Shown piece by piece: positions 12,858 to 55,969 of a stretch of DNA of 62,962 nucleotides (position 1 is the stretch's first letter; each line of letters starts with the position of its first letter). Below the pieces are notes generated by a model. That model was not told where the DNA came from and did not search any database. It was given only the letters and a program-made list of their open reading frames with translations. Source of the DNA: a virus; the IMG/VR virus record IMGVR_UViG_3300022871_000857, positions 1 to 62,962 of that record; one strand, given 5' to 3'. Both the position numbers and the translations under genes were made by a program.

Positions 12858-12860
12858 ATT

Positions 12861-14991: not shown

Positions 14992-14994
14992 AAA

Positions 14995-15681
14995 ATGAGA
15001 TATAATACAACTAAAAACAAATTACATAAATTAACAAATAAATATACAAAACATCTTAATGAACTGTTAAAAAAGCTAAAGAAGAAACCCCTTAAAAAAC
15101 AGAGATTAAATTTATATGAAAAACCTATAGTATATGAATCTGATTTTGAACTTCCCTATGTTTTACATGAAAGAAATAGAAAAGATATATTTGTAAATTT
15201 AGTCACAGACGCACCTTTGGATTTTCAATATGCAGAAAAATATGTCGAAATTTTTTATTATCCTGAAGGAAGTTATGGGAGGGTTTTATTAAATACATAT
15301 AATAGGAGAGAATACGATATTTATAATAAAAGAGGAAGTCATAATACCGAAGATATGATTGATGTTTATATTTTTAATAAAGATTTTGAATATACCTTTT
15401 ATAATATACCAGAAACTTTAATTGATTATGTAGAAACAGCAATAGTTTTGGATAAGGAAGTTGATTTCCCGAATTCAGAAATAGTAACACCGGAAGGTCT
15501 AAGCATACAGTCTATACCAACATTTCAAATAAAACAAACAGAAGCACAAGAAGAATTAGGGTTTGTTGACTTAATTGTTAGAGATGGATTTTCTAAAGTA
15601 GTTAATACCTTAGATAGTCCAGATTGGATTCCAACTGATTTTAAGGTTAAAATGATTGTTTCTCTTATAAATCCCTTCTAA
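14995..15681 (+). CDS. tail-tip protein, LINPF family member 3
   Basis: A 228-residue protein with a very basic first 40 residues, a beta-rich centre (VNLVTDAPLDFQYAEKYVEIFYYP) and the ending VKMIVSLINPF, a shortened version of the two preceding proteins' ends. It is the last plus-strand gene. Its 3' end overlaps the convergent minus-strand gene by 17 bases. Confidence 0.55.
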   Translation: MRYNTTKNKLHKLTNKYTKHLNELLKKLKKKPLKKQRLNLYEKPIVYESDFELPYVLHERNRKDIFVNLVTDAPLDFQYAEKYVEIFYYPEGSYGRVLLNTYNRREYDIYNKRGSHNTEDMIDVYIFNKDFEYTFYNIPETLIDYVETAIVLDKEVDFPNSEIVTPEGLSIQSIPTFQIKQTEAQEELGFVDLIVRDGFSKVVNTLDSPDWIPTDFKVKMIVSLINPF

Positions 15682-16057
15682 TTTCATTAAAAGCTACTTT
15701 TGGTATACTATTCTTAATACCTTGTTTCCAACCTGTTGTTTTTTTACCTAAATATTCTTTATCTACATCAATGTTTTCATATGAAATTGTAGTCTTGTTT
15801 AAGTCAAAAATAAATTTATATATTTTATATTTACTTAATCCCATTAGAATAGTTTTAGTTACCATTGTTTTTTTATTAAATAAAGACACATGTTCTATTA
15901 TATGATTATATTTTTCAAACCCACCTATACTAACAGACCTATTAAAAAGATTATATTCTATCTTAGAGATAGGTTTTTTAGGCATCTTATTCCACTTCGA
16001 ATCTTCTATATCTCCACCCTTCCAAATCTTTTTATCCTTAAAATATACATTGTACAT
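15665..16057 (-). CDS. conserved-looking small phage protein, unknown
   Basis: A 130-residue basic protein starting MYNVYFKDKKIWKGGDIEDS, of a type seen in phages but without known function. An AAAGGAG ribosome site lies 8 bases before ATG 16057. Its promoter region carries tandem palindromes and TTGACA repeats. It is the only minus-strand gene downstream of the tRNA pair, and its convergent overlap with the last tail gene could make the two transcription units antagonistic. Confidence 0.6.
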   Translation of the reverse strand: MYNVYFKDKKIWKGGDIEDSKWNKMPKKPISKIEYNLFNRSVSIGGFEKYNHIIEHVSLFNKKTMVTKTILMGLSKYKIYKFIFDLNKTTISYENIDVDKEYLGKKTTGWKQGIKNSIPKVAFNEIRRDL

Positions 16058-16118
16058 TATTTATTCTCCTTTTGGATACAGTAACTTATCATTTTTGTTA
16101 AGTTAATGTATTTAGTTA

Positions 16119-16146
16119 TATCTAAACTACTATACATAATTGTCAA
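16119..16146 (-). promoter_or_regulatory. candidate promoter for the 15,665-16,057 gene
   Basis: A perfect -35 TTGACA (16146-16141) is followed 16 bases later by TAGATA (16124-16119), leaving a leader of about 55 bases to ATG 16057. Two more TTGACA hexamers lie upstream at 16181-16176 and 16203-16198, both inside an 11-base direct repeat. Confidence 0.45.
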
Positions 16147-16175
16147 TTTATTGCCAGCCTTATCTGTTTTATTAT

Positions 16176-16208
16176 TGTCAACTTCAGGTCTTGTTTATGT
16201 CAACTTCA
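16176..16208 (-). repeat. 11-base direct repeat containing TTGACA
   Basis: TGAAGTTGACA (minus strand) occurs at 16186-16176 and again at 16208-16198, 22 bases (two helical turns) apart. It may be a repeated -35 region or a regulator site next to the promoter above. Confidence 0.5.
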
Positions 16209-16258
16209 ATCTTAATTTCGTATAAAATGTTAATACTTTTTAATAACTATATACATTT

Positions 16259-16309
16259 TGTGACAGATTGTCACAGAAATCCTATCCTTTGTGTGACAAA
16301 TTAGTCACA
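16259..16309. promoter_or_regulatory. tandem palindromic operators
   Basis: TGTGACA-GAT-TGTCACA is a perfect palindrome at 16259-16275. A second site, TGTGAC-AAATTA-GTCACA, lies at 16292-16309. Their centres are about 33 bp (three turns) apart, as expected for cooperative binding of a dimeric repressor or activator. No obvious regulator gene is adjacent, so a host or distant phage protein may bind. Confidence 0.6.
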
Positions 16310-16325
16310 ATTTGCTTTAATTTGC

Positions 16326-16427
16326 ATTCCCTCTGGTCAGGTGCTTTAACCGTTCCTGACAAGTACACCTTAAAGGTGTTTGTGTGTGGGTCAATCTTAG
16401 CGTTTACCATTACGCCACAGAGGGAAT
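16326..16427 (-). ncRNA. tRNA-like cloverleaf RNA without encoded CCA
   Basis: A perfect 10-bp closing stem (16326-16335 with 16418-16427) encloses a D-arm-like hairpin with a standard stem and loop (GCGT-AATGGTAA-ACGC on the minus strand, 16415-16400). A second hairpin is ACACC-TTTAA-GGTGT (16379-16365) and a third GTCAGG...CCTGAC (16360-16336) has a 13-base loop and stacks on the closing stem. It starts 8 bases after the CCA of tRNA-Tyr, so both are probably processed from one transcript. The arms deviate too much for a normal tRNA, and no CCA follows. A degenerate tRNA or a tRNA-derived RNA fits best. Confidence 0.55.
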
Positions 16428-16435
16428 GGTTGGTT

Positions 16436-16517
16436 TGGTGGGTGTGCCTGGAGTTGAACCAAGTTGATGGCTAGAACGGTTTACAGCCGTCCCCCTGACC
16501 GTTAGGGCATCACACCC
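16436..16517 (-). tRNA. tRNA-Tyr (GUA)
   Basis: A class II cloverleaf: acceptor GGGTGTG/CACACCC, D-arm with GG, anticodon loop CTGTAAA giving anticodon GUA, an enlarged variable region, T-arm CTTGG-TTCAACT-CCAGG, A73 and an encoded CCA (16438-16436). Positions 8-9 read AT rather than the usual TA-type residues. It probably supports translation of Tyr-rich late proteins. It lies downstream of the glycosyltransferase gene on the same strand. Confidence 0.9.
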
Positions 16518-16527
16518 AAATTCTCAT

Positions 16528-16541
16528 TAGGATTGCTCCTA
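16528..16541. other. small hairpin TAGGA/TCCTA
   Basis: TAGGA-TTGC-TCCTA forms a 5-bp stem with a 4-base loop between the tRNA-Tyr 5' end and the upstream gene. On the plus strand it is followed within a few bases by a T-rich run (CTATTTTTATTTT), so it could end stray plus-strand transcription. It shares its AGGATTGC core with the phased repeats nearby. Confidence 0.35.
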
Positions 16542-16593
16542 TGCTATTTTTATTTTACGACATATAACGCACACAACTAGACTATATCGTTAA

Positions 16594-16620
16594 TCCTACG
16601 TTATCCTGTGCATTCCTAAG
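16594..16620 (-). repeat. 10-bp phased AGGA repeats, copy 1
   Basis: On the minus strand three AGGA cores stand exactly 10 bases apart (plus-strand TCCT at 16594, 16604 and 16614). They read TTAGGAATGC, ACAGGATAAC and GTAGGATTAA. A matching triplet with the same phasing occurs at 35730-35753. One core overlaps the stop codon of the glycosyltransferase gene. Helical phasing suggests a protein-binding array. Confidence 0.45.
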
Positions 16621-17440
16621 TGATATAATCACCATATGTCTTTAAATTATATTTAGCTATAACTTTATTTCTAAATTCACTATACATTCTTTTTCTATAA
16701 TTATTATATATTGTAGGTTTAAATTTAATATATTTAGCTGTAATATCTTTAGTAAATAGAACTTTATTAGCACCTTGACTATTTTTTAGTCTCCAAAAGA
16801 AATCTAAATGCTCAAATAGTTTTAATTCATTATCCCATTTAACTTTATATAAAATATTAGTTTTAGCTAAAAAGAAATTGTTTATTTTATCACATTTAAT
16901 AAAAGAACATGATTTATATGTAGATGTAGTGTTTTCTGGTTTAGTTAATATAAACTTATCTTCTGTTTTTTCTATATTCCAAGTCCATTCAATCCTATCA
17001 TTTAAATGTAAACCTATTATTGCCACATCTTTAAGTATACTTAATAATTCAGTTAATTCATCTATTTTGTTTATACTTTCATTAAATTCAAATGAATCAG
17101 ATATAATCATAGAATATTTACATTTTAATTCCTTTGCTTTTTCAACTAAGAAGTTTCTACCATATGATAATCCAGAATCAAAAGGTATTGTATAATAAAA
17201 AACATTTTTATGAGCTTTTATTTCTTCAATAAATTCCTTTTTATCTTCAATCCATTCTTTATCTTTAGTATCTTTTGTTTCTTTACTAAATATATCATAT
17301 CCTTGGTCTGCAATTAATAAGACAAAATTATCTCTCCAATTATTTAGTATACTTTTGGTATTATTATATAACAGCTTATCTCTTAAAAAAGTAGTCATAC
17401 AAAGTGCTATTTTAGGTTTACGTCTATTAAATCCAATCAC
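16616..17440 (-). CDS. GT2-type glycosyltransferase (possibly altered active site)
   Basis: A 274-residue GT-A-fold protein. It shares TTFLRD, an RNFL/ARNYL segment and an EHLDFFWRLKN segment with the GT2 domain of the 914-residue protein at 20,218, so the two are paralogues. Where the latter has IDDDF as its metal-binding DxD, this one has ISDSF, which keeps D-x-(S) only and may be weakened. Likely transfers a sugar to a cytosolic acceptor in the island's glycan pathway. It overlaps the next gene upstream by 4 bases. Confidence 0.8.
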   Translation of the reverse strand: MIGFNRRKPKIALCMTTFLRDKLLYNNTKSILNNWRDNFVLLIADQGYDIFSKETKDTKDKEWIEDKKEFIEEIKAHKNVFYYTIPFDSGLSYGRNFLVEKAKELKCKYSMIISDSFEFNESINKIDELTELLSILKDVAIIGLHLNDRIEWTWNIEKTEDKFILTKPENTTSTYKSCSFIKCDKINNFFLAKTNILYKVKWDNELKLFEHLDFFWRLKNSQGANKVLFTKDITAKYIKFKPTIYNNYRKRMYSEFRNKVIAKYNLKTYGDYIT

Positions 17441-18276
17441 AGTAATTCTCCTTCATATCCATATATATGATTTTTATTAAGATATTTTTTAATTACTTCA
17501 GGATAAAGATAGTATTTATTTTCATCATATACTTTACATGATTTTATATCTTTAGTTATATATTCTATTGCTTTCTGTTCTAATTCTTCTATTGTTTTAC
17601 ATTTACGCTTCTCCATAGCAAAATCTTCAATAGTAGTTGTTTTATAGCTATCAGAAACCTTTTCCCATGCATATAAATGAGTTCTTAACAGTCTCCTTAA
17701 AGGGGTTTTAACATTACAGTCAAATTTAATAGGTGAATATAAAGATATTATATGTCCACTAGATATAGGTACATCTCCTGTTTCAGGACACCACTTAATT
17801 CTACCTTTTTTAAGTATTGTAGGATGAGGTACTATTAATATCTTATCCTTACCATATCCTTTTTTAAATGGTTCTTTATGATGTATTAAGTCATGTTTTA
17901 AATATACCATAGGACTATATATACCTTGAATATTACTGTCTTCTAAAATAACAGCAAAGTTCTTTAATGCTCTTTCACCTGTAGTATAGAACACTTCATC
18001 TCCGTCTTGTATTAAAAACCACTCATATCCGTCAGCTTCAGCTTTCTTAATTAGTTCCATTCTACCTTCTCTTAATCTCATCTCTGAATTAATATATTCT
18101 ACATTTAAATCCCATTTTTTAATACACATATCAAGAACTTCTTTTGTTTTATCTCTTCCTGACTTATGTAGAATATAATATTTATGAACCACATCTTTAG
18201 TAGATTCTAAAGCCAAAGGTAACATATTTTGTTCTTCCCAGATGCCCATTATACAAGCAAGTTTCTCTATTTTCAT
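17437..18276 (-). CDS. glycosyltransferase, GT2-like
   Basis: A 279-residue protein with a GT-A Rossmann start (KLACIMGIWEEQNMLPLALES) and a clear metal-binding QDGDE at ~residue 95. The C-terminal half ends with a Tyr-rich helix region. I start it at 18276, where ATGA overlaps the previous stop, rather than at the longer in-frame start 18309. A member of the minus-strand glycan operon; sugar and acceptor unknown. Confidence 0.75.
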   Translation of the reverse strand: MKIEKLACIMGIWEEQNMLPLALESTKDVVHKYYILHKSGRDKTKEVLDMCIKKWDLNVEYINSEMRLREGRMELIKKAEADGYEWFLIQDGDEVFYTTGERALKNFAVILEDSNIQGIYSPMVYLKHDLIHHKEPFKKGYGKDKILIVPHPTILKKGRIKWCPETGDVPISSGHIISLYSPIKFDCNVKTPLRRLLRTHLYAWEKVSDSYKTTTIEDFAMEKRKCKTIEELEQKAIEYITKDIKSCKVYDENKYYLYPEVIKKYLNKNHIYGYEGELL

Positions 18277-18485
18277 ACTGTTCTCCAAGTCCTTACTCTC
18301 TCTGCCCATGTACCAAATGCCTTTTTAGCATATGTTTCTGCTTCTTTTTTTGAATCAAAATATACTGGTGTAGTTAAAAAACCAGAACCACAATAATCAG
18401 ATACTTTTGCTACTGTATTCCAAAATAAAAAATCCTTTACCAGTACTTTATATCTTTCACCATTTGTAACTATTTTATATTTCAT
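18273..18485 (-). CDS. small hypothetical protein in glycan operon
   Basis: A 70-residue protein with a DSKKEAETYAKKAF helix and short strands, resembling small SPOR/DUF-type alpha/beta modules. No catalytic motif is visible. It overlaps both neighbours by 4 bases, so it is co-translated with the glycosyltransferases. Confidence 0.5.
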   Translation of the reverse strand: MKYKIVTNGERYKVLVKDFLFWNTVAKVSDYCGSGFLTTPVYFDSKKEAETYAKKAFGTWAERVRTWRTV

Positions 18486-18700
18486 AGTTTTCCTTTCGCT
18501 CCTATAACATCAATTTCTGCATCTATTGATTTAATTAATTTATTTCTATATGTATTTAATTTTATTATCTGTTTAGAAGTTTTACCTTTATTAATATTAT
18601 CTAAATTAAGGTTTTCTTCTAAATGCCAAATCTTTAAATTAACTATAACTAATTTATCAATTAATTCTCCTACCGTATATCTTACTAAATCAGTTGTCAT
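18482..18700 (-). CDS. DUF4254-like small protein
   Basis: A 72-residue helical protein containing GELIDKLVIVNLKIWHLEE, the signature segment of small DUF4254-type proteins often found beside surface-sugar glycosyltransferases. Its neighbour at 18,697 repeats the motif in diverged form. Function unknown; a scaffold or regulatory subunit of the glycan enzymes is a guess. Confidence 0.55.
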   Translation of the reverse strand: MTTDLVRYTVGELIDKLVIVNLKIWHLEENLNLDNINKGKTSKQIIKLNTYRNKLIKSIDAEIDVIGAKGKL

Positions 18701-18948
18701 TTCTTTTCTCCATAATAGTTTACTTTGGTTTCTCCTGTACCTTGATTAAAATAATCATTTATATTTTCTTTTGATTCAGACCTTTTCCTATTAGATATTC
18801 TAGCTTGCATAAATATATCTTCGACATCTTTATCTGTTAAGACCAAATCTTCTCTTAAATCACCATTAACATCTTTTAATTGAGTATCATAGTGCCAATT
18901 CTGTAAGTTTGCAATTACAAGACTATTAATATTATCTCCTATTGACAT
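18697..18948 (-). CDS. DUF4254-like small protein, diverged paralogue
   Basis: An 83-residue protein whose N-terminus (IGDNINSLVIANLQNWHYD) matches the preceding small protein's motif. The remainder is charged and probably disordered. An AAAGG ribosome site lies just before the ATG at 18948, which I prefer over the upstream in-frame ATG at 18963 that overlaps the previous stop. Confidence 0.55.
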   Translation of the reverse strand: MSIGDNINSLVIANLQNWHYDTQLKDVNGDLREDLVLTDKDVEDIFMQARISNRKRSESKENINDYFNQGTGETKVNYYGEKK

Positions 18949-18959
18949 TTTATTACCTT

Positions 18960-19520
18960 TCATAATTTCTCAAAAAATATACAATAACCGATATTACCTA
19001 ACTCCCTATATTTATTTTTATTTATTTTACTATCTACAAATCTTTTAATTCCAGGACAGTCATGAAAATCATAATCATGAAATCCTATTATACCACCTTT
19101 AACTAATCTATCATTAACAAAATTAAATCCTATTTCTGTTGCTGTATATGTATCCATATCTAACCAAGCAAAACAAAATTTACTTTTTTTATTTAATTTC
19201 CTAGTTGTTATTTTTATATTACCTGCTACAGGAACTACATAATTTTCTAATTTCCGACTATCTCTCTGTTTAATAAATTCTTCTATACCATAATAAAATT
19301 TACCTTTTTCTATTGAACTTTCAATATCATATTCTGGCATACCTTCAAATGTATCAAATGCATATACTATTTTATTACTATTATTATCTTTAAGTAATTT
19401 GGCTAATTGAAATGTAGTTTTACCTGTATAAACTCCCATTTCTATAACATCTCCTTCTAAATCTAAAACGTGTTTTAATTGAGATACACAGGCTTTAGTT
19501 CTAATTGGAATATATTCCAT
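18960..19520 (-). CDS. TylF-family O-methyltransferase
   Basis: A 186-residue class I SAM methyltransferase. The GDVIEMGVYTGKTT motif I (~residues 23-36), the DTFEGMP segment (~56-62) and the LDMDTY metal/catalytic strand (~119-124) match macrocin/TylF O-methyltransferases acting on sugar hydroxyls. The HDYDFHDCPGIKRFVD region also fits. It should cap or tailor the glycan made by the island. Stop and start overlap its neighbours. Confidence 0.85.
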   Translation of the reverse strand: MEYIPIRTKACVSQLKHVLDLEGDVIEMGVYTGKTTFQLAKLLKDNNSNKIVYAFDTFEGMPEYDIESSIEKGKFYYGIEEFIKQRDSRKLENYVVPVAGNIKITTRKLNKKSKFCFAWLDMDTYTATEIGFNFVNDRLVKGGIIGFHDYDFHDCPGIKRFVDSKINKNKYRELGNIGYCIFFEKL

Positions 19521-20218
19521 TATTTTACCTCTAATAAATAATGTAAACCAACATCATTTATTTCTGTTTTCTTTAAATTTAATTTATCCAAAAGCTTATA
19601 GAATTTATCTAATGTTACGTTGAAAATATCTTTCATCATTTCTTCATGAACTTCACATATAATTTTAATATCAGGATTGTCCTGTATAACTCTTTCCATT
19701 CCTTTTAAAACTAAATATTCAGAACCTTCAACATCTATTTTCACTACATATTTTTCTTTAGATAGTAATACATCATCTAATATTTTTGTTCTTATTTTTT
19801 TACTATTTGTATATTTTTTATTTTTTGAGAATCTAAACATTTTACCTGATACGTCAGTACTCATATTACAACCCATATATCCTTCTCCATTAATATCTGA
19901 TAGGGCAAGAGGTAATACTATCATGTTATTTAATCCATTTAAAACTATATTTTCTTCTAACCAATCACATCTATCTTTATCTGGTTCTATTGCTATAACA
20001 TAACCACATATTAGAGATGCAGGAAAAGAGAATACTCCCATATTAGCACCTATATCTACAAAGGTTGTTTTATTATCTAATAATTTAAAACACGTTTTCA
20101 TAATTTTAGGTTCATAAAATTTATTAGATTTAAGCATTTCCTCTGGTTCATATACTTTGCCTTTATGTAATAACATTTTCCATTTTAAATTATCTAATTT
20201 TAAATCATATTCCTTCAT
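19520..20218 (-). CDS. FkbM-family methyltransferase
   Basis: A 232-residue SAM methyltransferase of the FkbM type: motif I VDIGANMGVFS (~residues 54-64), IAIEPD (~75-80), and KIDVEGSEYLVLKGM (~158-172), the family's hallmark. FkbM enzymes O-methylate sugars or polyketides. It forms a tandem with the TylF-like enzyme, so two sugar methylations are likely. Confidence 0.9.
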   Translation of the reverse strand: MKEYDLKLDNLKWKMLLHKGKVYEPEEMLKSNKFYEPKIMKTCFKLLDNKTTFVDIGANMGVFSFPASLICGYVIAIEPDKDRCDWLEENIVLNGLNNMIVLPLALSDINGEGYMGCNMSTDVSGKMFRFSKNKKYTNSKKIRTKILDDVLLSKEKYVVKIDVEGSEYLVLKGMERVIQDNPDIKIICEVHEEMMKDIFNVTLDKFYKLLDKLNLKKTEINDVGLHYLLEVK

Positions 20219-22962
20219 TATATTCTACCTTTCTTTTTTAATTTATCTATTATTGTAATTCCATATATATCTTTTAAATATTTAACAACAGGAGAAGGTA
20301 TTACATATGAATACCCCGAATCATTTAACCATGTTTTAGTGTGTATGGTTGTTTTTATAAATTTAATATTTAAATTAGGTTTAATATTTTTAGTAAGTTC
20401 AACTGCTTCATGAATATCGGTTACTCCTAAATACACATTATCATCTTTTATATTATTAAAATTCTTATCTAAAACAGCACACTTACACGTATCTTTCATT
20501 AAAATAACTGATATTCCATTGTCTTTTAATATTGAAGTATATTTATATATTTCTTCTTCTTTATTTGAAGCAGTAATATTAACAGGTATTATTGTTTCTT
20601 TCTGTGTTTTGTTCTCTATTTTGTTCTTTACAACTGTAGTTTCTTCTGTAGGTTTTTTTATATCACCTAAATTAACATTACATATGTCTTTTAAGGCTGT
20701 TATGTCCCATTTCTTACAAAAGATTTCTAAACCTTTATTAACATTTATATCACGCCTAAAACTATTATATTCTTTACTATTTGAAGTTTCATTGTGTGCT
20801 ATCTCTACTTCTGGAGTATAAGCTACTTTCCAATCAGTATCTTTTAGTCTTAAAAAGAAATCACTATGTTCTACTAAAACCAAATCATTGTCCCAATTAA
20901 TATCATAAAATAATTCTCGTTTATATAAAGCAAAATTTAAAACAATATCAGTATCATAATATGTAACTTCTCTTGGTTTATAATTATATTTTGTTGTTTT
21001 ATGTGTTTTATAATCTACCGAAAATATATTAACCTTTAATATCTTGTTTATACTAGGAATAGGACAGAACCATCCTAAATAAGGACTTCTACCTTCTAAT
21101 TTTCCTCCTGCTATACCTATGTTTTCATCATCTTCTAATATGTCTCTGAATTTAGTTATATCTGATTTTTTAGTAAAAATAAAATCATCATCTATAACAA
21201 GTATAAAAGGTTCTACTGTCTTACTGGCTAGATAATTCCTAGCATATGCAAGACCACAATTATATTCTAATTTAAATATTTTATGTCCATTTTTATTTAA
21301 TTCATCATAGTATTTCATCATTTCATCAGAAACCTTTTCATTTTGGTCTCCAATATATATTCTTATTAAATCATCAGGATAAAAACTTCTTAATGAATCA
21401 ATACATTTTACTATTTTATCATCACGTAAAAAGGTAGTAACAATAACTGCTATTTCCCTATGTGTTCTATTAGCATTTACTCTACCACCCCAACCAGTAA
21501 AATTGGGTTTGTCTATATGCCAGTCTCCATAATTATCAGTTAAGAACATATCAATATTTTCAGGTATTTTTATTGTTTTATTAAAATAAGTATAATCTTC
21601 AAATGAATGGAGTGTTTCTGCTGATACTGTTAAACATCTTTCCCAATCAACAAAACCATTTATTGGATTTCTACTATATAAATATGTCTGATATTTATCA
21701 GTATCTAAATTGTATTCATAAAAATTAAAATCTAGTTTAGGATATTTACTAGATTTCAATCTAAACGTAAATTCCATTCTCCATAAACAATTTATTTCTA
21801 TACCTTTAGGTGGATTTGTCTTTAGTAATTCTTTTATTTTCCATCTATCATCTACAAATAATCCTAAATCAATATCTGTACTGTAATAATTTTTATCTCT
21901 ATATGATTTTAATAGAGTGCCTAAATTAAGAAAATAGAATATATTATGTTCATCTAACCAATCAGACATAATATGAAATATTTCTTCTTTAGCTTTCTTC
22001 ATTTTATCATTATTAATTTTAGGATCCATCGTCATATTTAAACCCTTTCCTAAGTAAAAATCTTCATATGTTTTTACTAGTGTCTTTGGAGTATAATTAG
22101 TATTTCTCCATTCTATTATTTTGTCTTTTTCCTTTTGTAAATTATTCTTTTTTAATAACTTTTTTATATTACGTTCTAAATTATCTAAATTTGTTTTATA
22201 AAAAGGATATTCATCACTACTATAATTAGTTAAAGCAACTGCACCGAAACAGGCTGCTTCTAAACTAGTACCATGAAAAGCATCTTTATTTATTATATCA
22301 TCAATAATTATATCTGCTTTATTTTTTTCTAGTAAGTTTTCTTTATAAGGCATACCTTCTATTATTTTTAAATTAAAATCATACTTATTTTTTAGTCTAT
22401 TTAATTCAGGTATTATTATATGGTATCCTTTAGAATATATATGTTCTTTATCATGTCTATTTGTAGGTGCATATAAAACCACAGGTTTATCATTGTTCTT
22501 TTTATCACATCCATATTCTTGTGATTTAATTATAGGTAAATATATATTACTTAAATCTTTATACACTTCTTTTTGCCATTTTTGGTCTGAAATTACAATT
22601 AAATCGTATATACTATAATCTTCTTTTATTTTTCTTTCTAATGCTTTTCTATGTACTGAATATAAATGTAATATTATTTTTTGTTTATCTGTTTTATATT
22701 TTAATAAGTCTGAAGGAAACAAACAATTATGACAATGTAGTATATCTGCTTTTTGTATTATTTCTATAGATTTTTTCCTATCTTTAAACCAATTTAAATC
22801 TCCAGGAAATTGTCTCTCTGCATGATTATATCCTTCAGAATATTTATTGCTTCCACATATAAGTCTAGATTCAATATAATCAGAATATTCATTTAATAAA
22901 TTATTCAATTCATATGGTGAACCTCCGATTGGATTACTAGCCAATTGTACAATTTTAATCAT
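20218..22962 (-). CDS. multidomain GT-B / LicD / GT2 glycan enzyme
   Basis: A 914-residue fusion. Residues ~1-305 resemble a GT-B glycosyltransferase, ending with the donor-site segment HGTSLEAACFGAVAL. Residues ~318-480 are LicD/fukutin-like: LNLGTLLKSYRD followed by STDIDLGLF, giving the two Asp of the nucleotidyltransferase site. Residues ~500-730 are a GT2 domain (IVTTFLRDD, IDDDF at ~590, EHSDFFLRL). Residues ~790-914 form a fourth, unrecognised alpha/beta unit. It could add two sugars and one phospho-substituent such as phosphocholine or ribitol phosphate. It overlaps its neighbours by 1 and 8 bases. Confidence 0.8.
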   Translation of the reverse strand: MIKIVQLASNPIGGSPYELNNLLNEYSDYIESRLICGSNKYSEGYNHAERQFPGDLNWFKDRKKSIEIIQKADILHCHNCLFPSDLLKYKTDKQKIILHLYSVHRKALERKIKEDYSIYDLIVISDQKWQKEVYKDLSNIYLPIIKSQEYGCDKKNNDKPVVLYAPTNRHDKEHIYSKGYHIIIPELNRLKNKYDFNLKIIEGMPYKENLLEKNKADIIIDDIINKDAFHGTSLEAACFGAVALTNYSSDEYPFYKTNLDNLERNIKKLLKKNNLQKEKDKIIEWRNTNYTPKTLVKTYEDFYLGKGLNMTMDPKINNDKMKKAKEEIFHIMSDWLDEHNIFYFLNLGTLLKSYRDKNYYSTDIDLGLFVDDRWKIKELLKTNPPKGIEINCLWRMEFTFRLKSSKYPKLDFNFYEYNLDTDKYQTYLYSRNPINGFVDWERCLTVSAETLHSFEDYTYFNKTIKIPENIDMFLTDNYGDWHIDKPNFTGWGGRVNANRTHREIAVIVTTFLRDDKIVKCIDSLRSFYPDDLIRIYIGDQNEKVSDEMMKYYDELNKNGHKIFKLEYNCGLAYARNYLASKTVEPFILVIDDDFIFTKKSDITKFRDILEDDENIGIAGGKLEGRSPYLGWFCPIPSINKILKVNIFSVDYKTHKTTKYNYKPREVTYYDTDIVLNFALYKRELFYDINWDNDLVLVEHSDFFLRLKDTDWKVAYTPEVEIAHNETSNSKEYNSFRRDINVNKGLEIFCKKWDITALKDICNVNLGDIKKPTEETTVVKNKIENKTQKETIIPVNITASNKEEEIYKYTSILKDNGISVILMKDTCKCAVLDKNFNNIKDDNVYLGVTDIHEAVELTKNIKPNLNIKFIKTTIHTKTWLNDSGYSYVIPSPVVKYLKDIYGITIIDKLKKKGRI

Positions 22963-23479
22963 GACTAAAAATTACTCCATATAGTTCTAATGCTTTTATA
23001 TTTAGTTCTTTACATGTATCTCTTATATTATCCAATGCAAACAAATATAATTCAATATTATTACAATTTGTAAATAAATCTTCTTTATCTATCATTATCA
23101 TATCTGTTTTTAAAGCTTCGACTAAACCACGTAATGACACAACTCCTTTAATATCTTCTATCTTAGGTACTATTTTCTTATCTACTTCATGCCATATTTC
23201 CAGTGCTTCATGAATATCGGAGGCATTAGAATAAGAAAAATATTCAATTTTAGCATATCTATTTGCAATTCCAATCGCTGTTTCTATACTAATTGTTGGT
23301 TGTGGTGGCTTAATTCTATTACTAGGATAATCAAGAAAAATAGGATATTCACATTTATCTATAAAATTCTTTAATTCTTGGGTATTTTCTACCCAAGCAC
23401 AATTTATCCTAACCACAGTATCTTTAGGTAATTTCATCTCCGGCTTACAAGTTAAAATATGATTTGAAATTAAAAACAT
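22955..23479 (-). CDS. truncated TIM-barrel protein, pyruvate-kinase-like
   Basis: A 174-residue protein. VVRINCAWVEN, IFLDYPSNRIKPPQP and IVPKIEDIKGVVSL followed by DMIMIDKEDL recall, in order, the VRVN, DxxGxKxR and KIE...DGIMVARGDL segments of pyruvate kinase, in under half its length and with the key Arg replaced. It is probably a PEP-binding or aldolase-like relative rather than a pyruvate kinase. A DIHEALEIW stretch resembles one in the fourth domain of the 914-residue neighbour. PEP use would fit the pyruvyltransferase of this island. Confidence 0.45.
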   Translation of the reverse strand: MFLISNHILTCKPEMKLPKDTVVRINCAWVENTQELKNFIDKCEYPIFLDYPSNRIKPPQPTISIETAIGIANRYAKIEYFSYSNASDIHEALEIWHEVDKKIVPKIEDIKGVVSLRGLVEALKTDMIMIDKEDLFTNCNNIELYLFALDNIRDTCKELNIKALELYGVIFSHD

Positions 23480-23488
23480 TTGTTCTCC

Positions 23489-24076
23489 TTATATTATATT
23501 GTTATTTTTTAATACTTTAATTACTTTAGTAGAATTATATCCTATACTATCAATTTCAGTAAATAATATTTCATTTGGATTATCAGGTTGTTCATATTCA
23601 ATATCTATACCTATAAAATTAGCTATTAATCCCATTTCTGCTTTTTTCCACATTATTTTTGTATCTCGTTTCATACATGTTTCTTTACTACACGCAACAT
23701 GTATTTCTATAAAGTTTTTATTATTATTTTTAAGTCTTTCCCTATCAATCTTAAATGGAGAAATAAATGAAGCCAAAACAATAACTCCATTAGAAGATAA
23801 CATATTTGATATAGCCGATAATCTTTTTATATTTTTATGTATATCTTCTACAGTAAAAGATAAATCATTATTAAATGCTTCTCTAAATTTATCTCCGTCT
23901 AGTAATACAACTCGCTTACCCATACTCTTTAATTTATTATATACTATTTTAGCTGTAGATGTTTTCCCAGAGCAAGGAAGACCTGTAAATAAAACTAAAC
24001 ATCCTTTATTTCTAGGTATTAATCCTAATTTTACTCCAATATTAATATATATAATTCTAATAATTTTTTTAATCAT
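23489..24076 (-). CDS. APS-kinase (CysC)-like P-loop kinase
   Basis: A 195-residue kinase. Walker A is GLPCSGKTS (~residues 32-40), followed by LLDGDKFRE (~58-66), the APS-kinase substrate loop, and a middle segment like the family's. In surface-polysaccharide clusters CysC-like enzymes phosphorylate activated sugars or alcohols rather than adenylylsulfate; the context supports that reading. The first ~20 residues are hydrophobic/basic and may contact membrane. Confidence 0.8.
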   Translation of the reverse strand: MIKKIIRIIYINIGVKLGLIPRNKGCLVLFTGLPCSGKTSTAKIVYNKLKSMGKRVVLLDGDKFREAFNNDLSFTVEDIHKNIKRLSAISNMLSSNGVIVLASFISPFKIDRERLKNNNKNFIEIHVACSKETCMKRDTKIMWKKAEMGLIANFIGIDIEYEQPDNPNEILFTEIDSIGYNSTKVIKVLKNNNII

Positions 24077-24421
24077 TTAAGACTTCTCCCTTATACTTGT
24101 ACCTGTTATTTTTTTAATTTCTTCTGGAACATCTATATGATATATTTTCCATCCCGGAGTTCTTCCATATGCTACTTCTATTATATCAGGTAACGCTAAA
24201 ATCTTAACTCTACCTTCTCCTATTTCTTTATAAAATATCTTTTCAAAAGCAGATTTTCTTTCTTCAATAGTATATGGGTTTGTATCTGTTCCGTCTTCTT
24301 CTCTTATTCCTATTACTACATTTTTATTTTCTTCTAGTAGTGTCTCAACTAACATTACATGTCCTTTATGTGGCTTAGGAACTTGAAATCTACCTAATAG
24401 TAATGTCCATTCTTTATGCAT
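24077..24421 (-). CDS. cytidylyltransferase/NMN-adenylyltransferase-like protein
   Basis: A 114-residue HxGH nucleotidyltransferase: GRFQVPKPHKGHVML near the N-terminus and the closing TGTSIREKS, the ISGTxIR motif. It is shorter than NadM/PanC-type enzymes but has both sites. It could activate a phospho-alcohol or phosphorylated sugar as a CDP or ADP derivative for the island; NAD metabolism is the alternative. It abuts the kinase gene at its 5' side, suggesting consecutive steps. Confidence 0.75.
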   Translation of the reverse strand: MHKEWTLLLGRFQVPKPHKGHVMLVETLLEENKNVVIGIREEDGTDTNPYTIEERKSAFEKIFYKEIGEGRVKILALPDIIEVAYGRTPGWKIYHIDVPEEIKKITGTSIREKS

Positions 24422-24430
24422 TGTTATCTC

Positions 24431-24688
24431 CTATTCAGAAATATTTAAAAGTTCTTTTACTTTTGCTATATTAAGACCAACAATATATTCTCCGTTTATT
24501 TTTAATGTTGGTATTCCCATTTGTCCAGAATCTTCAACCATTTCTTTGGCTGCTTCAACATCTTTCATAACATCTTTTAAAGTAAAATCTATTTTATTAT
24601 TTTCTAAATATGTTTTAAGTGTTAAACATTGGGGACAAATAGTTGTACTATATAGTATTATTTTATTTTTCTTTCCTTTTTTTCCCAT
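24431..24688 (-). CDS. glutaredoxin/NrdH-like redoxin
   Basis: An 85-residue thioredoxin-fold protein with active site CPQC (~residues 18-21) and the cis-Pro element GIPTLKINGEYIVG (~58-71). Such phage redoxins reduce ribonucleotide reductases or other disulfides. The NrdD in this phage lies 9 kb away and normally uses formate or other reductants, so the partner is uncertain. Confidence 0.85.
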   Translation of the reverse strand: MGKKGKKNKIILYSTTICPQCLTLKTYLENNKIDFTLKDVMKDVEAAKEMVEDSGQMGIPTLKINGEYIVGLNIAKVKELLNISE

Positions 24689-25325
24689 TTTTACTCCTTA
24701 TCTTAGTTTCTATTTCAAATACTATAGGTTTATTATTTAATTTATAACAAAAATCACATATTGAACAATTAATAAATGTAGTTTTATCTATTGTGACTTT
24801 ACCATATCCTTCATGTATATGTCCGAATATATGATATTTTGGTTTAATTCTTTTTATTTCTTTTAATAGATATTTATCTCCTACGTTTTTATCATATACT
24901 GAAGCCACTTCATCTAAAATTCCATAGGGTGGACCATGAGTTATTAATATATCTATTTTTTTATCTAATTTTCCCCATTTATTTTTTAAAACTTCTTTTT
25001 CTTCTATAAAAACCCAATTACCAAATTTAGGAGTATATGGAGAACCATATATAGTTAGACCTTCAATTTCAATATACTCATCTTCTAAATATTTAGCATT
25101 AGTAACTAAAATTCTAGCATCCGTATTTTTCATATAATAATCATGATTTCCTGCTATCATTATTTTATATTTATGGGGTTGTTTACCTAAAAAAGAATTA
25201 AATTTAATTAAGTTTCGTCTGTTACCCCACATAGAAAAATCTCCAGCAAATATTAACATATCTCCATTTGGTATTTTTAATTTGTCATAATCCTTATGTA
25301 CATCTGCAAATACAACTATTTTCAT
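24663..25325 (-). CDS. calcineurin-like metallophosphoesterase
   Basis: A 220-residue enzyme with the complete metal set: FADVH, FAGDF, AGNHDYY, ITHGPP and FGHIHEG. The family includes MPPED-type phosphodiesterases and phage phosphatases. The C-terminus is Lys/Arg-rich and overlaps the redoxin gene by 26 bases. Substrate unknown; in this island it may hydrolyse nucleotide-sugar or phosphodiester intermediates. Confidence 0.85.
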   Translation of the reverse strand: MKIVVFADVHKDYDKLKIPNGDMLIFAGDFSMWGNRRNLIKFNSFLGKQPHKYKIMIAGNHDYYMKNTDARILVTNAKYLEDEYIEIEGLTIYGSPYTPKFGNWVFIEEKEVLKNKWGKLDKKIDILITHGPPYGILDEVASVYDKNVGDKYLLKEIKRIKPKYHIFGHIHEGYGKVTIDKTTFINCSICDFCYKLNNKPIVFEIETKIRSKNGKKRKEK

Positions 25326-25981
25326 TTTATTCTCCTAAAGAATTCTGAATATTCTATTTTTTTAAAGTACGGTATATTGCTAATCATACTTACGTTGTGT
25401 ATTTTTACATCATAATCTAAATACCTCTCAAAGTCTTCTACATGTTTTTTAGGTGTACCATCACCTGTTCCCTTTAGGTATATACTTGGGTTTCCTATAC
25501 CTGAAGACCTTACTTTCAATTCATCTTGATAAAAGTGTGTTTTTTTATTCTTTAAAGTAGGTGTACCAAAATCATAACCTAGTAAATAGATATTATTATA
25601 TCCTTCTTTTATTGCTAAAGATAAAGAAAAGACACCTACTAATCCTAAACCACCTGAAAATATTGCTTTCTTTTTTTCATCATATATACCTTCAACTTCT
25701 TTATTAGCATCATATTTTACTATTTCATTGATATGTTTTGATTTAGTATTTGTTTTAGAAACTAATTCAACTCCTTGTTCTTTTAATTTAAATAGTTTAT
25801 CCATATTAGTTACATAAAAAACTTGGTCTACCCATATTTCTCTAGTAGGTAAATAAGGCATTTTCTCGAAAGCAAAATTAAGAGACCATATCGTCTTTCC
25901 TTTTATGTGTTCCCATAATCCTTTTTCTATACCCTCTTTAATAGAATAACCTCCACCGATTAAAATAAGTTCTTTATTCAT
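25322..25981 (-). CDS. DUF115/MptE-like Rossmann protein, copy 1
   Basis: A 219-residue protein starting ELILIGGGYSIKEGIEKGLW with later IYLLGYDFG. Both elements recur in the gene at 27,372-28,034, so the two are tandem paralogues. The motifs resemble DUF115 proteins, a fold shared by MptE and motility-associated (Maf) glycosyltransferases. A transferase acting on an activated nonulosonic-type sugar fits the neighbouring sialyltransferase-like gene but is not proven. Confidence 0.65.
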   Translation of the reverse strand: MNKELILIGGGYSIKEGIEKGLWEHIKGKTIWSLNFAFEKMPYLPTREIWVDQVFYVTNMDKLFKLKEQGVELVSKTNTKSKHINEIVKYDANKEVEGIYDEKKKAIFSGGLGLVGVFSLSLAIKEGYNNIYLLGYDFGTPTLKNKKTHFYQDELKVRSSGIGNPSIYLKGTGDGTPKKHVEDFERYLDYDVKIHNVSMISNIPYFKKIEYSEFFRRIK

Positions 25982-26507
25982 TGCGTAATTTTATCCTCAT
26001 ATTTTTTTCAATTTGTTTCATAACATAATCTTTCTCTTTTTCTGGACTATGCTGTGCAGTATAAATACTATTAGTGTACCATGTGGGTGTAGACCAAAAG
26101 TCAAAACCATATAGGTCTAGTAATTCAAAATTAACATTGTTTACTAGATAATCAAATATCATGCATCCAGTAGAGGGTCTATTGTTTCTTAATTTTTTAA
26201 ATAAATTACCCCACTCAACCAAATCATAATAAAAATCATATTTTGTATTATCTCTATTTTTAGGTGTTGCCCAAAAAACATATTTGGCATTAAATTCTTT
26301 TATTGTTTCTTCAGATAATAGAGTAGATAATACTAATATATCTGTTCTTGAACCTATAAATTTCTCCTTACCTTCTGGATGTCCATTGTTCATTCTAATA
26401 ATTACTTGATAGTTATTAAAATCTTTTTCTTTATTGAGAATACTTTTCGCATTCCCTAATAAAGCAATTCTTTTATTGTTTAAATATTGAGTTAAATTAG
26501 ATTTCAT
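25974..26507 (-). CDS. sialyltransferase-like (GT29-type) protein
   Basis: A 177-residue protein resembling GT29 enzymes: RIALLGNAKSIL followed by VIIRMNNG matches the large sialyl motif, and RPSTGCMIFDYLV matches the small motif region. A late LYGFDF completes it. Such transferases use CMP-activated nonulosonic acids; no CMP-sialate synthetase was found here, so the donor may come from the host. It sits between the two DUF115-like genes' operon partners. Confidence 0.7.
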   Translation of the reverse strand: MKSNLTQYLNNKRIALLGNAKSILNKEKDFNNYQVIIRMNNGHPEGKEKFIGSRTDILVLSTLLSEETIKEFNAKYVFWATPKNRDNTKYDFYYDLVEWGNLFKKLRNNRPSTGCMIFDYLVNNVNFELLDLYGFDFWSTPTWYTNSIYTAQHSPEKEKDYVMKQIEKNMRIKLRNE

Positions 26508-27375
26508 TTAATAATTTCTCCATCTTTTCTTTATTTAGAAAATTACCTGAAGTAATAAACTTATGGAAATCATCATATATATGTTTATTATCTTTATTTG
26601 ATGCAAATCTTATTTGTTCCATTATATCATTTCTATTACGACAAATTTTTATAGGTAAACCACTCCATTTTATTAAACCTTCTATCTTATGTGAGTTACT
26701 TGACAAAGGAACAAATGGTATTCCTGCTAATCCAGCCGCATAAATTCCGTGATGTTGACCTGTTACATATACTCTTGCATTTTTTAAACTTTTAACAATA
26801 GTATTAAAAGTGAATATTCTCTTAAAAGCCAAAATAGGTAAATCTATTGTTTTTAAAATAGCATATTCACTGACTCCAGGATGAGCATTTCCTTTTAATG
26901 TTAGACCTCTAGTATCTTGAACTAATACATTTTTATCTGTAAAGTTAATTGGGTCTACACATGAATCTAATAATACTTCAGGATTACCACCACATTGTTT
27001 TGCTTTATCATAGCTTAATATTTCTCTAACAGACAAGTAATCTAATTTTTTAAATACTTCATTGTAATAAGGAGCAGGGAAATCTAATACGGTATTTATA
27101 AGCATTGTCTTTTTATTAGTATCTTGTGCGTATTTTAAAATATCCATTAATACTGTCCCTGCTCTATTCTGATGATGTATAGTTCCTTCTCCGTTCACTA
27201 CAACTACTTCTGATTTATCAATCAGTTCTTTAAATTTATCATTAAATTTATCTGTATGAACATAATGTCTACCTACAACATAATGACTACTTAAAATATT
27301 GTTTATTGATTTCATAACTGCTTTAGAACCACTGTGTCCTGAATTGGTGTCATTTGCTAAAAATATTCTTTTCAT
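26497..27375 (-). CDS. polysaccharide pyruvyl transferase family protein
   Basis: A 292-residue protein with the family's GT-B-like pattern: NDTNSGHSGSKAVM near the start, VVNGEGTIHH at ~75-84, and GQHHGIYAAGLAGIPFV at ~213-229, the conserved (S)R/Q-x-H-x3-A-x2-xGxP element. Family members transfer pyruvate from PEP onto sugars as a ketal, giving negatively charged glycans. It overlaps both neighbours. Confidence 0.85.
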   Translation of the reverse strand: MKRIFLANDTNSGHSGSKAVMKSINNILSSHYVVGRHYVHTDKFNDKFKELIDKSEVVVVNGEGTIHHQNRAGTVLMDILKYAQDTNKKTMLINTVLDFPAPYYNEVFKKLDYLSVREILSYDKAKQCGGNPEVLLDSCVDPINFTDKNVLVQDTRGLTLKGNAHPGVSEYAILKTIDLPILAFKRIFTFNTIVKSLKNARVYVTGQHHGIYAAGLAGIPFVPLSSNSHKIEGLIKWSGLPIKICRNRNDIMEQIRFASNKDNKHIYDDFHKFITSGNFLNKEKMEKLLNEI

Positions 27376-28034
27376 TTGTTATCCTCTATTCGTTTATAAA
27401 ACTCATCATATGATAGTTTAGGAAAACTAATTATATTTGATGTTAAACTTACATTATATACTTCTACTTTAGTATGTTTTTTTATAATATCAAAATCTTT
27501 TATTTCATCTCTAATTTTATTTTCTCCTGCCCAATATATACCTGACCTACCATAACTTCCTGCATTAATGTCTTCATTTAAATCTTCATACCAATGAGTA
27601 TTATTGTTTCTAATATGAGTAGAACCAAAATCATATCCTAACAAATATATGTTTTCATATTTTCTTGATATAGCTAAAGACAAGGCAAATACACCCGATA
27701 AACCCATTCTACCAATAAAAATATTTGTTTCACTACTTTTTTCTATGAAGGGTGTAACATCATATTTATTTATAAAATAATTATTGTCATATCCAGCATA
27801 GTTTTTACATATTAGTTCTGTTCCTTTTGAATGTAATTCTATTAATTCAGTCCTACCTTTAGTCCATACTCCTATATCTGCCCATATTTGAACTGAAGGA
27901 TTGAATGGCATAAACATATGTGAAAAATTAACAGACCAAACATCAATTCCTTTATGTTGTATTTTATCCCACAATTGTTTGTCTATTCCTTCTTTTACTG
28001 AATATCCTCCACCTATGATAATTACGTCATTCAT
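27372..28034 (-). CDS. DUF115/MptE-like Rossmann protein, copy 2
   Basis: A 220-residue paralogue of the 25,322-25,981 protein: same IIGGGYSVKEGIDKQLW start, a FIGRMGLSGVFALSLAI helix corresponding to copy 1, and IYLLGYDFGSTH. Divergence is substantial, so the copies probably act on different acceptors. It is the last gene of the glycan island and overlaps dnaN by 4 bases, tying the island to the replication operon. Confidence 0.65.
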   Translation of the reverse strand: MNDVIIIGGGYSVKEGIDKQLWDKIQHKGIDVWSVNFSHMFMPFNPSVQIWADIGVWTKGRTELIELHSKGTELICKNYAGYDNNYFINKYDVTPFIEKSSETNIFIGRMGLSGVFALSLAISRKYENIYLLGYDFGSTHIRNNNTHWYEDLNEDINAGSYGRSGIYWAGENKIRDEIKDFDIIKKHTKVEVYNVSLTSNIISFPKLSYDEFYKRIEDNK

Positions 28035-29125
28035 TCTTTATTCTCCAATTGCATTGGCAATATAATATAAATATATTCGTTTGTTTTCCTAATTACTACA
28101 GGTTTTTCTGAAGTAGTAACTTCAAGTTCTATCTCTTTATCACATACTGTTTTTAGTATATCATTTATAAATACAGGATTAATACCCAATACTAATTCAA
28201 TATCGTTTTCTTTAATCTCTATTTCATCTTGTGCTTCATCCATATTACTGCTTTTCTTAAATAATACAATATTATCTTTTGCTATATTTATTGTAATTGC
28301 TTTTAATTCTAAATCAGTAAATACTGATACTCGTTTTAAAGCATCATAGAACCTCTTGGTTTCAATTTTAATACCACTCTTATACTTAGGTATTGCTTTA
28401 TCATAATCAGGGAAATCATCTTGTATTAATCTAGATACTAATATTATGTTGTTTAATTTAAAACATATTTGATTATTATTTATAGCAATTTCTATGTTGC
28501 CTTCACCCTGTAAATTTTTACTTATTTCTACGGCTGCTTTATAAGAAACAATAGATTTAATATTATTTGTAATTTCTTCTTCTAAAGTATCGAAAATAAC
28601 AGCAAGTCTTTTACTATCAGTTCCTACCATTCTAACTTCTTTACCTCTTATATCTAGCAATACTCCGTTGTAGGCGGGTTTTGTTTCATCTCTTGATACT
28701 GTAAATAAGGTCATATCTAGTAATCTTTTTAGTTTTATTTGTGAAATAGATATGCTATTTTCTAGACTATATGATATACTAGGGAAATCAGATATAGGTA
28801 ATCCATTTACTTTAAATTTTATTTTACCAAATGAAATAATTAAAGTATTTTCTTTTAGTTTTAAATTTATATCTTCCTTCGGTAATTCTTTTACTACACT
28901 AATGAATTTATTAATAGGAACAGTTATATTTCCTTGTTCTATAATTTTAGCTTTACAGTTATATTTTAAACTAATATCTAAATCGGTAACTGTAAAATCC
29001 ACACTGTCTTCATTTGTAGTAATCATAACATTTTCTAAAATAGGTAAACTAGCTTGAGGTGAAGCAATATTTTGAATTGCAAATGCAACATTTAATAAAT
29101 CCTGTTGATTAATAACTACTTCCAT
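28031..29125 (-). CDS. dnaN: DNA polymerase sliding clamp (beta)
   Basis: A 364-residue protein of bacterial beta-clamp length with the three-domain pattern: start MEVVINQQDLLNVAFAIQNI, the PILENVMI segment, LFTVSRDETKPAYNGVLLDI in domain 2, VGTDSKRLAV, and a C-terminus ending in the usual strand. It should encircle DNA and tether the phage's family B polymerase. A phage-encoded clamp together with a clamp loader (55,967) gives a largely host-independent replisome. Confidence 0.95.
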   Translation of the reverse strand: MEVVINQQDLLNVAFAIQNIASPQASLPILENVMITTNEDSVDFTVTDLDISLKYNCKAKIIEQGNITVPINKFISVVKELPKEDINLKLKENTLIISFGKIKFKVNGLPISDFPSISYSLENSISISQIKLKRLLDMTLFTVSRDETKPAYNGVLLDIRGKEVRMVGTDSKRLAVIFDTLEEEITNNIKSIVSYKAAVEISKNLQGEGNIEIAINNNQICFKLNNIILVSRLIQDDFPDYDKAIPKYKSGIKIETKRFYDALKRVSVFTDLELKAITINIAKDNIVLFKKSSNMDEAQDEIEIKENDIELVLGINPVFINDILKTVCDKEIELEVTTSEKPVVIRKTNEYIYIILPMQLENKE

Positions 29126-29126
29126 A

Positions 29127-31417: not shown

Positions 31418-31608
31418 TTATCTTCTTTCTTATAATAATATGTTTCAGGTATCGGATTTTGAAACTTAGCAAAACAATTATGACAGATATATTCTTTATA
31501 TCCTGTTTTTACAATTTTGGTACTTGCCATTCCTATTTCTTTAACTTCTCTTAAATCGGCAACTTCATCTCTTTCCATTAGAGTTTCACCACAATTAGGA
31601 CAATTCAT
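31414..31608 (-). CDS. small zinc-ribbon protein
   Basis: A 64-residue protein with CPNC at residues 3-6 and CHNC at ~43-46, a four-Cys zinc ribbon. I start it at 31608, preceded by AGGAG; an upstream in-frame start at 31620 is possible but has weaker support. It overlaps sbcD by 4 bases. Function unknown. Confidence 0.7.
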   Translation of the reverse strand: MNCPNCGETLMERDEVADLREVKEIGMASTKIVKTGYKEYICHNCFAKFQNPIPETYYYKKEDK

Positions 31609-55937: not shown

Positions 55938-55969
55938 TAATATAGAATAAAAATCACCAATGGCAATTA
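55938..55969 (-). promoter_or_regulatory. bipartite promoter-like motif, second copy
   Basis: TAATTGCCAT (55969-55960), 12-base spacer, TTCTATATTA (55947-55938): both halves and the spacing are identical to the recA leader. The upstream half overlaps the clamp-loader stop codon; the ATG of the gene it serves is 21 bases downstream. Confidence 0.65.

Follow-up and report, generated by a model that had tools for sequence, protein, structure and literature searches.

The IMG/VR virus record IMGVR_UViG_3300022871_000857, a fragment of an uncultured tailed virus that was analysed over its whole length of 62,962 bases and is called the window below, carries on its minus strand, at positions 16616-28034, an island of glycan-type genes continuous with the replication operon. 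Gene content, predicted folds and comparison with diverged relatives point, with a probability that we place at about 0.5, to an exchangeable glycosylation locus of a phage lineage, whose enzymes would put an acidic, methylated and, in relatives, sulfated glycan on a virion protein, probably of the tail, by means of Maf-like DUF115 transferases. The site and a small core of genes are kept among the relatives and the chemistry turns over, in the fashion of capsule loci; the swapping of the cassette at the same place, often with sulfate enzymes, suggests that the viruses use it to coat their own particles with sugar.

Phage virion glycosylation is already known. According to what PMC12363180 and PMC11256854 relate of Freeman et al. 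2023, the mycobacteriophages Che8, Corndog and Myrna glycosylate capsid or tail proteins with their own transferases. These systems resemble the island in relying on soluble phage-encoded glycosyltransferases, with a product proposed to sit on capsid or tail proteins; the island, however, is far larger, has an acidic chemistry involving pyruvate, LicD and 3'-phosphoadenylylsulfate (PAPS), employs Maf/GT42-like transferases and lies between replication and tail modules. What is new is that the variable locus is syntenic and includes a PAPS branch; in the open-access literature, no paper was found that brings together phage, sulfotransferase, adenylylsulfate kinase and glycosyltransferase. Phage virion glycosylation so far rests on a few mycobacteriophages. 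The locus provides a lineage-wide syntenic system for testing both glycosylation and the purpose of the sulfotransferases, and it defines the enzymes to look at: the Maf-like transferases, the adenylylsulfate (APS) kinase with its adenylyltransferase partner, and the sulfotransferases. If a sulfated glycan with 3-deoxy-D-manno-octulosonic acid (Kdo) or a sialic-like sugar were present on virions, phage particles could vary chemically like bacterial capsules, with effects on adsorption, persistence and recognition by defences.

Organization of the island and its transferases

The island comprises 17 co-directional, mostly overlapping open reading frames (ORFs) with intergenic gaps of -37 to +9 nt and purine-rich ribosome-binding sites before most genes. 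An earlier note on this DNA had described about sixteen overlapping genes forming a glycan-synthesis island joined to the replication genes; the overlapping run is real, the count is 17, and the junction is seen in a 4-nt overlap between the first island gene (DUF115a) and the beta clamp gene; the reading as a glycan-synthesis island is strengthened by the syntenic variable locus in relatives. The island is thus continuous with the replication operon (clamp, SbcCD). No terminator-like site was found on the minus strand of 15600-31500, which together with this continuity makes early expression a fair guess; a search for consensus promoters gave no signal above chance. The features of the island and its borders are as follows (aa, amino acids).

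10293-15681, plus strand: distal tail genes, convergent to the island
16616-17440, minus strand: GT2a, GT2-like glycosyltransferase, last island gene; 36% identity to an island protein of relative G005 and 40% to one of relative L141, both of these being kin to the GT2 domain in the 914-aa protein; Pfam and PDB yielded nothing convincing
17437-18309, minus strand: GTx, probable GT-A-type glycosyltransferase with a DGDE motif, assigned by eye only; no convincing match in Pfam, NCBIfam and PDB searches
18273-18485, minus strand: small ORF of 70 aa, no family assigned
18482-18700, minus strand: DUF4254-like small protein b; PF14063 1.3e-5, just below cut-off; homologues in the glycan clusters of phages L004 and L007
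18697-18963, minus strand: DUF4254-like small protein a, paralogue of b (33% identical, common LVIxNLxxWH); no Pfam match of its own
18960-19520, minus strand: TylF-type sugar O-methyltransferase; PF05711 1.9e-10, PF13578 2.1e-12
19520-20218, minus strand: FkbM-type methyltransferase; PF05050 5.7e-15, TIGR01444 88 bits against a cut-off of 37.7
20218-22962, minus strand: 914-aa multidomain protein; N-terminal domain, LicD-like domain (residues 324-497), GT2 domain (about 503-765), C-terminal extension
22955-23479, minus strand: 174-aa protein with weak pyruvate-kinase-barrel-like similarity; PF00224 0.013; 39% homologue in relative G003
23489-24076, minus strand: APS kinase, which would make PAPS; TIGR00455 153.3 bits against a cut-off of 138.7, PF01583 7.9e-45, PDB APS kinases 8.8e-31
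24077-24421, minus strand: NTase, a minimal adenylyltransferase-fold protein (nucleotidyltransferase) of 114 aa, partner of the APS kinase; AlphaFold2 model and profile match
24431-24688, minus strand: glutaredoxin; PF00462 9.3e-14
24663-25325, minus strand: calcineurin-like metallophosphoesterase; PF00149 8.3e-13; 50% homologue in G003
25322-25981, minus strand: DUF115b, Maf/GT42-like transferase; phrog_4603 7e-7; 42% identical to DUF115a
25974-26507, minus strand: GT29-like (sialyltransferase-like) protein; motifs L, S and H-x4-E; PF00777 3.4e-4
26497-27375, minus strand: polysaccharide pyruvyl transferase; PF04230 1.2e-12
27372-28034, minus strand: DUF115a, Maf/GT42-like transferase, first island gene; AlphaFold2 model matches Maf and CstII
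28031-29125, minus strand: beta sliding clamp; PF02767, PF00712, PF02768
29127-30557, minus strand: SbcC-like ATPase, conserved boundary gene; PF02463 6.1e-13

The SIALYLTRANSFERASE-like proteins of the island are DUF115a, DUF115b and the GT29-like protein. The two DUF115-type proteins named in the earlier note are confirmed as paralogues, with a predicted fold of the Maf/GT42 sialyltransferase type. DUF115a was modelled with AlphaFold2 from 13 viral homologues (predicted local distance difference test, pLDDT, 87.6), and the model matches the Maf flagellin glycosyltransferase 5mu5 with Z 14.6 (185 residues aligned, 3.4 A) and Campylobacter CstII with Z 12.3 (183 aligned, 3.8 A); the lowest rows of the match list, functionally unrelated proteins, have Z 4-5.6. 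The DUF115 profile likewise gives a weak full-length match to CstII (E 0.003). In contrast to Maf and CstII, to which they are 17-21% identical, the DUF115 proteins are viral, stand alone at about 220 aa and occur as two paralogues.

The GT29-like protein was aligned with homologues from the relatives G004 and G008. It contains motif L (GNAKSIL...RMNNG), motif S (RPSTGC...LYGFD) and H-x4-E, with the H and E columns invariant across the three homologues, and its profile matches a mammalian ST3Gal structure (0.0033) with the L and S regions aligned. The sialyltransferase assignment proposed earlier is therefore backed by the sialylmotifs and the ST3Gal match; the Pfam score, at 20.5 bits, is below the 23-bit cut-off, and for this reason only the name GT29-like is used.

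Profile searches also bear out the FkbM and TylF methyltransferases, the pyruvyl transferase and the LicD-like domain of the earlier prediction; the last has no direct Pfam match and was found with a profile of the relatives' LicD-like domains (1.6e-14). As to GT2-like enzymes, the domain in the 914-aa protein stands (PF00535 2.6e-11), GT2a is GT2-like only through relatives and GTx is left without a convincing match, while the supposed GT-B enzyme, read by eye in the N-terminal domain of the 914-aa protein, has neither Pfam nor convincing PDB support. The FkbM, TylF, GT2, APS kinase, pyruvyl transferase, glutaredoxin and metallophosphoesterase assignments all score above curated cut-offs. The LicD-GT2 fusion occurs in L141 too. 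The glutaredoxin, the metallophosphoesterase and the two DUF4254-like proteins had not been mentioned before, and the first two possibly lie outside the glycan pathway. The two DUF4254-like paralogues adjoin sugar methyltransferases in the window, and such proteins are also present in other phages' glycan clusters. The G003 homologue of the 174-aa protein adjoins LicD, an HldE-like nucleotidyltransferase and the clamp.

Conserved site, variable content and probable sulfate supply

Searches of isolated phages at the DNA and protein levels, for which the island, the 914-aa protein and DUF115a served as queries, yielded nothing, and single-sequence searches of IMG/VR gave no matches; the family was opened in IMG/VR by a search for a motif common to the DUF115 paralogues. 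At least seven diverged relatives with a glycan island at the matching site have been identified, with polymerases 38-47% identical to that of the window where compared. As in the window, the space between SbcC and the convergent tail module is occupied by a glycan-type island in L141 and in G004 (82 kb), G005 (96 kb), G006 (89 kb), G007 (70 kb) and G008 (106 kb); the polymerases of the last five share 38-42% identity with that of the window. In G003 (polymerase 45%), the island surrounds the clamp gene and includes LicD-like genes, a LegC/PseC-like aminotransferase, the HldE-like nucleotidyltransferase and the homologue of the 174-aa protein. L141 (JAEOSD010000017.1), the sole match in one scan of GTDB with DUF115, is a contig in a Lokiarchaeota metagenome-assembled genome and evidently represents a virus of the window's lineage with tail genes, the SbcC end and a glycan island; its placement there reflects either mis-binning or a wider host range.

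When each window gene was compared with the five fully compared relatives G004-G008, homologues were found in 5/5 for most of the tail core, for SbcC and for DUF115a, in 4/5 for DUF115b, in 3/5 for the APS kinase and the NTase, in 2/5 for the GT29-like protein and in 0-1/5 for the other island genes. DUF115a and DUF115b match the same gene in most relatives, so their counts are not independent. The three distal tail genes beside the island (12861-15681) have homologues in none of the five, and the variable zone therefore takes in these genes as well as the island. Nor is gene order constant within the island: DUF115a is clamp-proximal in the window and tail-proximal in the relatives. The fixed site, conserved ends and variable transferase content recall bacterial capsule and O-antigen loci, from which the window island differs in having no recognised flippase, polymerase or exporter and in being phage-borne beside tail genes. 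The major capsid gene (PF05065) of two other phages, L004 and L007, is immediately followed by a glycan cluster that encodes a DUF115 protein 53% identical to the window's. In these phages (L004 and L007, with L010 and L011), DUF115, DUF4254-like, LicD, GT9 and epimerase genes follow directly after the prohead protease and major capsid genes.

The APS-kinase-like enzyme of the earlier note is, by the curated equivalog score, a true APS kinase (CysC), with the P-loop and DGD conserved relative to PDB APS kinases. The sulfate theme extends to the relatives: sulfotransferase-like genes number two in the island of G004, three in G005 and up to four in G006, and most match Pfam sulfotransferase families, several below cut-off, with one G006 candidate (L056:4887-5489) assigned by eye and having no family match. 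In L067, another SbcC-linked relative, a sulfotransferase directly precedes the NTase and the APS kinase. In G005, a CysP-like permease (215 bits, below the cut-off of 400, its only family match) adjoins the APS kinase, and a genuine Kdo-8-P synthase (TIGR01362, 341 against a cut-off of 314) directly adjoins DUF115. In G007 and G008, no APS kinase homologue was found, and no PF13469 sulfotransferase either. The sulfotransferases, CysP-like sulfate permease and Kdo-8-P synthase of the relatives make sulfation and a Kdo or nonulosonate donor likely parts of the pathway. Sulfotransferases of the Sulfotransfer_3 family have been reported in phages, e.g. Synechococcus phage S-SRM01 and OM43 phages, and their function has been called unclear (PMC10580990); here, in contrast, gene order links sulfotransferases to an APS kinase and glycan genes.

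The NTase, labelled cytidylyltransferase-like in the earlier note, is nearer to nicotinamide mononucleotide (NMN) and phosphopantetheine adenylyltransferases (NMNAT and PPAT). Its model (pLDDT 89.6) has Z 10-11 to PPAT and NMNAT folds, which make up most of the structural match list; ATP sulfurylase is not among the rows listed, which excludes nothing. The profile of this protein of about 115 aa matches NMNAT (1e-9) over an NMNAT-like first half, with the middle segment missing in the alignment. Three identities found no support: NMN adenylyltransferase (PRK01153, 34 bits against a cut-off of 127; the protein ends at 114 aa and the NMN-binding segment is missing in the alignment), ATP sulfurylase (no PF01747 domain and no support from curated scores) and glycerol-3-phosphate cytidylyltransferase (no support from curated scores). 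PF01747 was not found in 19 viral records, the window's and 18 others, in a search that detected its controls.

The NTase is widespread in IMG/VR viral records: 158 stretches were confirmed and 80 kept. Neighbours were counted in 46 dereplicated viral loci. An APS-kinase-like gene lies on the same strand at most 1.5 kb away in 38/46 loci, and within 100 bp in 29; five short or variant kinases were checked, and all score above the PF01583 cut-off. A sulfotransferase is found upstream on the same strand within 3 kb in 9/46 loci, a 3.4-fold excess over flanks (p 0.03). This link was stronger before dereplication (22/76 and 7-fold), whereas the kinase link held. Across L061-L140, the pair of an APS-kinase-like protein and a 115-aa adenylyltransferase, partly with an upstream sulfotransferase, is widespread in viruses and also occurs in 170-kb-class viral contigs. 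As in PAPS synthesis by CysC and ATP sulfurylase and in bacterial sulfotransferase clusters, there is a true APS kinase, accompanied in relatives by sulfotransferases and the CysP-like permease; unlike there, the viral kinase adjoins a 115-aa adenylyltransferase-fold protein. The simplest reading is a sulfate-activation pair, in which the NTase is perhaps a minimal sulfate adenylyltransferase; it may instead have an NAD-related role, as the NAD synthase gene of G006 would allow. A bolder proposal, tentative and on balance doubtful, is that many viruses carry a self-sufficient sulfation cassette, running from the NTase through the APS kinase to sulfotransferases, which here would sulfate a virion Kdo or nonulosonate glycan placed by DUF115.

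Proposed pathway and alternative explanations

The island would be transcribed with the replication genes, and its soluble enzymes would build up an acidic glycan in the cytoplasm. The chain could come from GT2-type transferases and the LicD-like phosphotransferase and its acidic ketals from the pyruvyl transferase, and the FkbM and TylF enzymes would O-methylate it; the APS kinase and its adenylyltransferase-like partner might provide the sulfate donor for sulfotransferases such as those in the relatives' islands. A keto sugar (Kdo or nonulosonate) activated by cytidine monophosphate (CMP) would be transferred by the DUF115 proteins, and perhaps the GT29-like protein as well, to Ser/Thr residues on a structural protein of the phage, probably one of the tail. 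The model for this step is Maf, which O-glycosylates flagellin Ser/Thr directly with nonulosonic acids and accepts CMP-Neu5Ac and CMP-Kdo, the latter in the case of CbMaf (PMC11339370). The glycan may let virions evade antibody-like or defence factors and factors that block adsorption, or it may tune adsorption. The charged, methylated glycan proposed earlier is thus reasonable from the enzyme set, with Kdo or nonulosonate and sulfate to be added. Virion glycosylation is best supported because of the activity of Maf, the tail-module neighbourhood and the two phages with DUF115 behind the major capsid gene.

Several observations weigh against virion glycosylation. An archaeal MptE-like 6-hydroxymethylpterin diphosphokinase has the same fold as DUF115a (Z 11.5), so the fold alone is no proof of glycosyltransfer, and H147, invariant in 13 DUF115 sequences, is nevertheless unaligned with CstII H188 in the profile alignment. 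No acceptor protein for DUF115 was identified. In the window, itself a fragment, neither a sulfotransferase nor a CMP-Kdo or CMP-nonulosonate synthetase was recognised; the sulfotransferase may come from the host or from phage genes outside the fragment. Two further points, the position of the island in the replication operon rather than the late structural operon, and GT2 enzymes of G004 and G006 (PF00535 1.7e-17 in G006) that by eye resemble dolichyl- or polyprenyl-phosphate sugar synthases (DPM-like) and would fit lipid-linked sugars, also speak for remodelling of the host surface.

Under such remodelling, a frequent reading of phage glycan genes, the enzymes would alter lipid-linked or lipopolysaccharide/S-layer glycans, masking receptors against superinfection or changing surface properties, and virions would stay undecorated. 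Early-operon position fits action during infection, and relatives contain membrane-linked parts, namely a DUF2061-like segment on the G006 APS kinase and a PiT permease in G005. However, the window island showed no recognisable gene for a multi-pass membrane protein, for a flippase, polymerase or export ABC transporter, or for an initiating polyprenyl-phosphate sugar transferase, and its products look soluble: on the Kyte-Doolittle scale, three hydrophobic stretches are at or slightly above 1.6, in DUF115a, DUF115b and FkbM, and that of DUF115a belongs to the globular fold in its model. The Maf-like fold, moreover, points to protein acceptors. Because of the missing multi-pass, flippase and polymerase proteins and the Maf-like transferases, glycosylation of a virion protein is favoured over a new surface polymer, and host-surface remodelling is regarded as possible but rather unlikely. 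The earlier suggestion that the glycan mimics a host surface polymer found no evidence in support, and no matching host locus was found; among the purposes offered with it, camouflage, superinfection block and surface change, the sequence does not separate.

A mainly metabolic locus, in which the APS kinase and NTase feed host sulfur assimilation or salvage of nicotinamide adenine dinucleotide (NAD) and the glycan genes form a loose assortment, appears improbable. The NTase is closest in sequence to NMN adenylyltransferases, G006 encodes a NAD synthase (NadE; PF02540 2.3e-75), and a related kinase-NTase gene of Stenotrophomonas phages adjoins a NADAR gene; yet the APS kinase shares islands with sulfotransferases and the CysP-like permease, most other island genes encode glycan enzymes, and the short NTase aligns without the NMNAT middle segment. 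Glycosylation of hypermodified phage DNA bases in the manner of T4 would agree with cytoplasmic transferases co-transcribed with replication genes, but no base-hydroxymethylating or other hypermodification gene was recognised among the larger ORFs scanned. DNA glycosylation is, to our knowledge, not known to involve pyruvyl, FkbM, TylF, LicD or sialyltransferase-like enzymes, which also counts against this explanation, and we consider it very improbable.

Host type and other features of the window

The plus strand of the window carries the tail genes, including the tape measure (5500-9186), and the minus strand a replication block with a family B polymerase, a primase-polymerase, an anaerobic ribonucleotide reductase, the beta clamp and SbcC/SbcD-like proteins. 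A tRNA-Tyr at 16436-16517 (82 nt) combines an expanded variable region with G1-C72 and a gene-encoded CCA, features that are bacterial in the established classes of tRNA. Because of these features and the bacterial-type beta clamp, the host looks bacterial, and an archaeal host was judged unlikely. A 25.5-kb contig from another record, L023 (IMGVR_UViG_3300031227_000379), belongs to a nearly identical phage: in the 13.2 kb compared, it and the replication part of the window are 99.9% identical.

Further observations concern the rest of the minus strand. A 1373-aa ORF at 50661-54782 contains three intein-splicing stretches together with LAGLIDADG and NUMOD3 motifs that interrupt an apparent DNA N6/N4 methylase, so that one gene apparently holds several inteins. 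A DNA polymerase III delta-prime/DnaX-like clamp-loader gene at 55967-58081 has an intein with a LAGLIDADG endonuclease inside. At 58300-60189, a CCA-adding-type enzyme adjoins an RlaP-family RNA-repair nucleotidyltransferase; with a polynucleotide-kinase-like AAA_33 protein encoded at 45734-46216 of the window, these form a possible tRNA-repair set.

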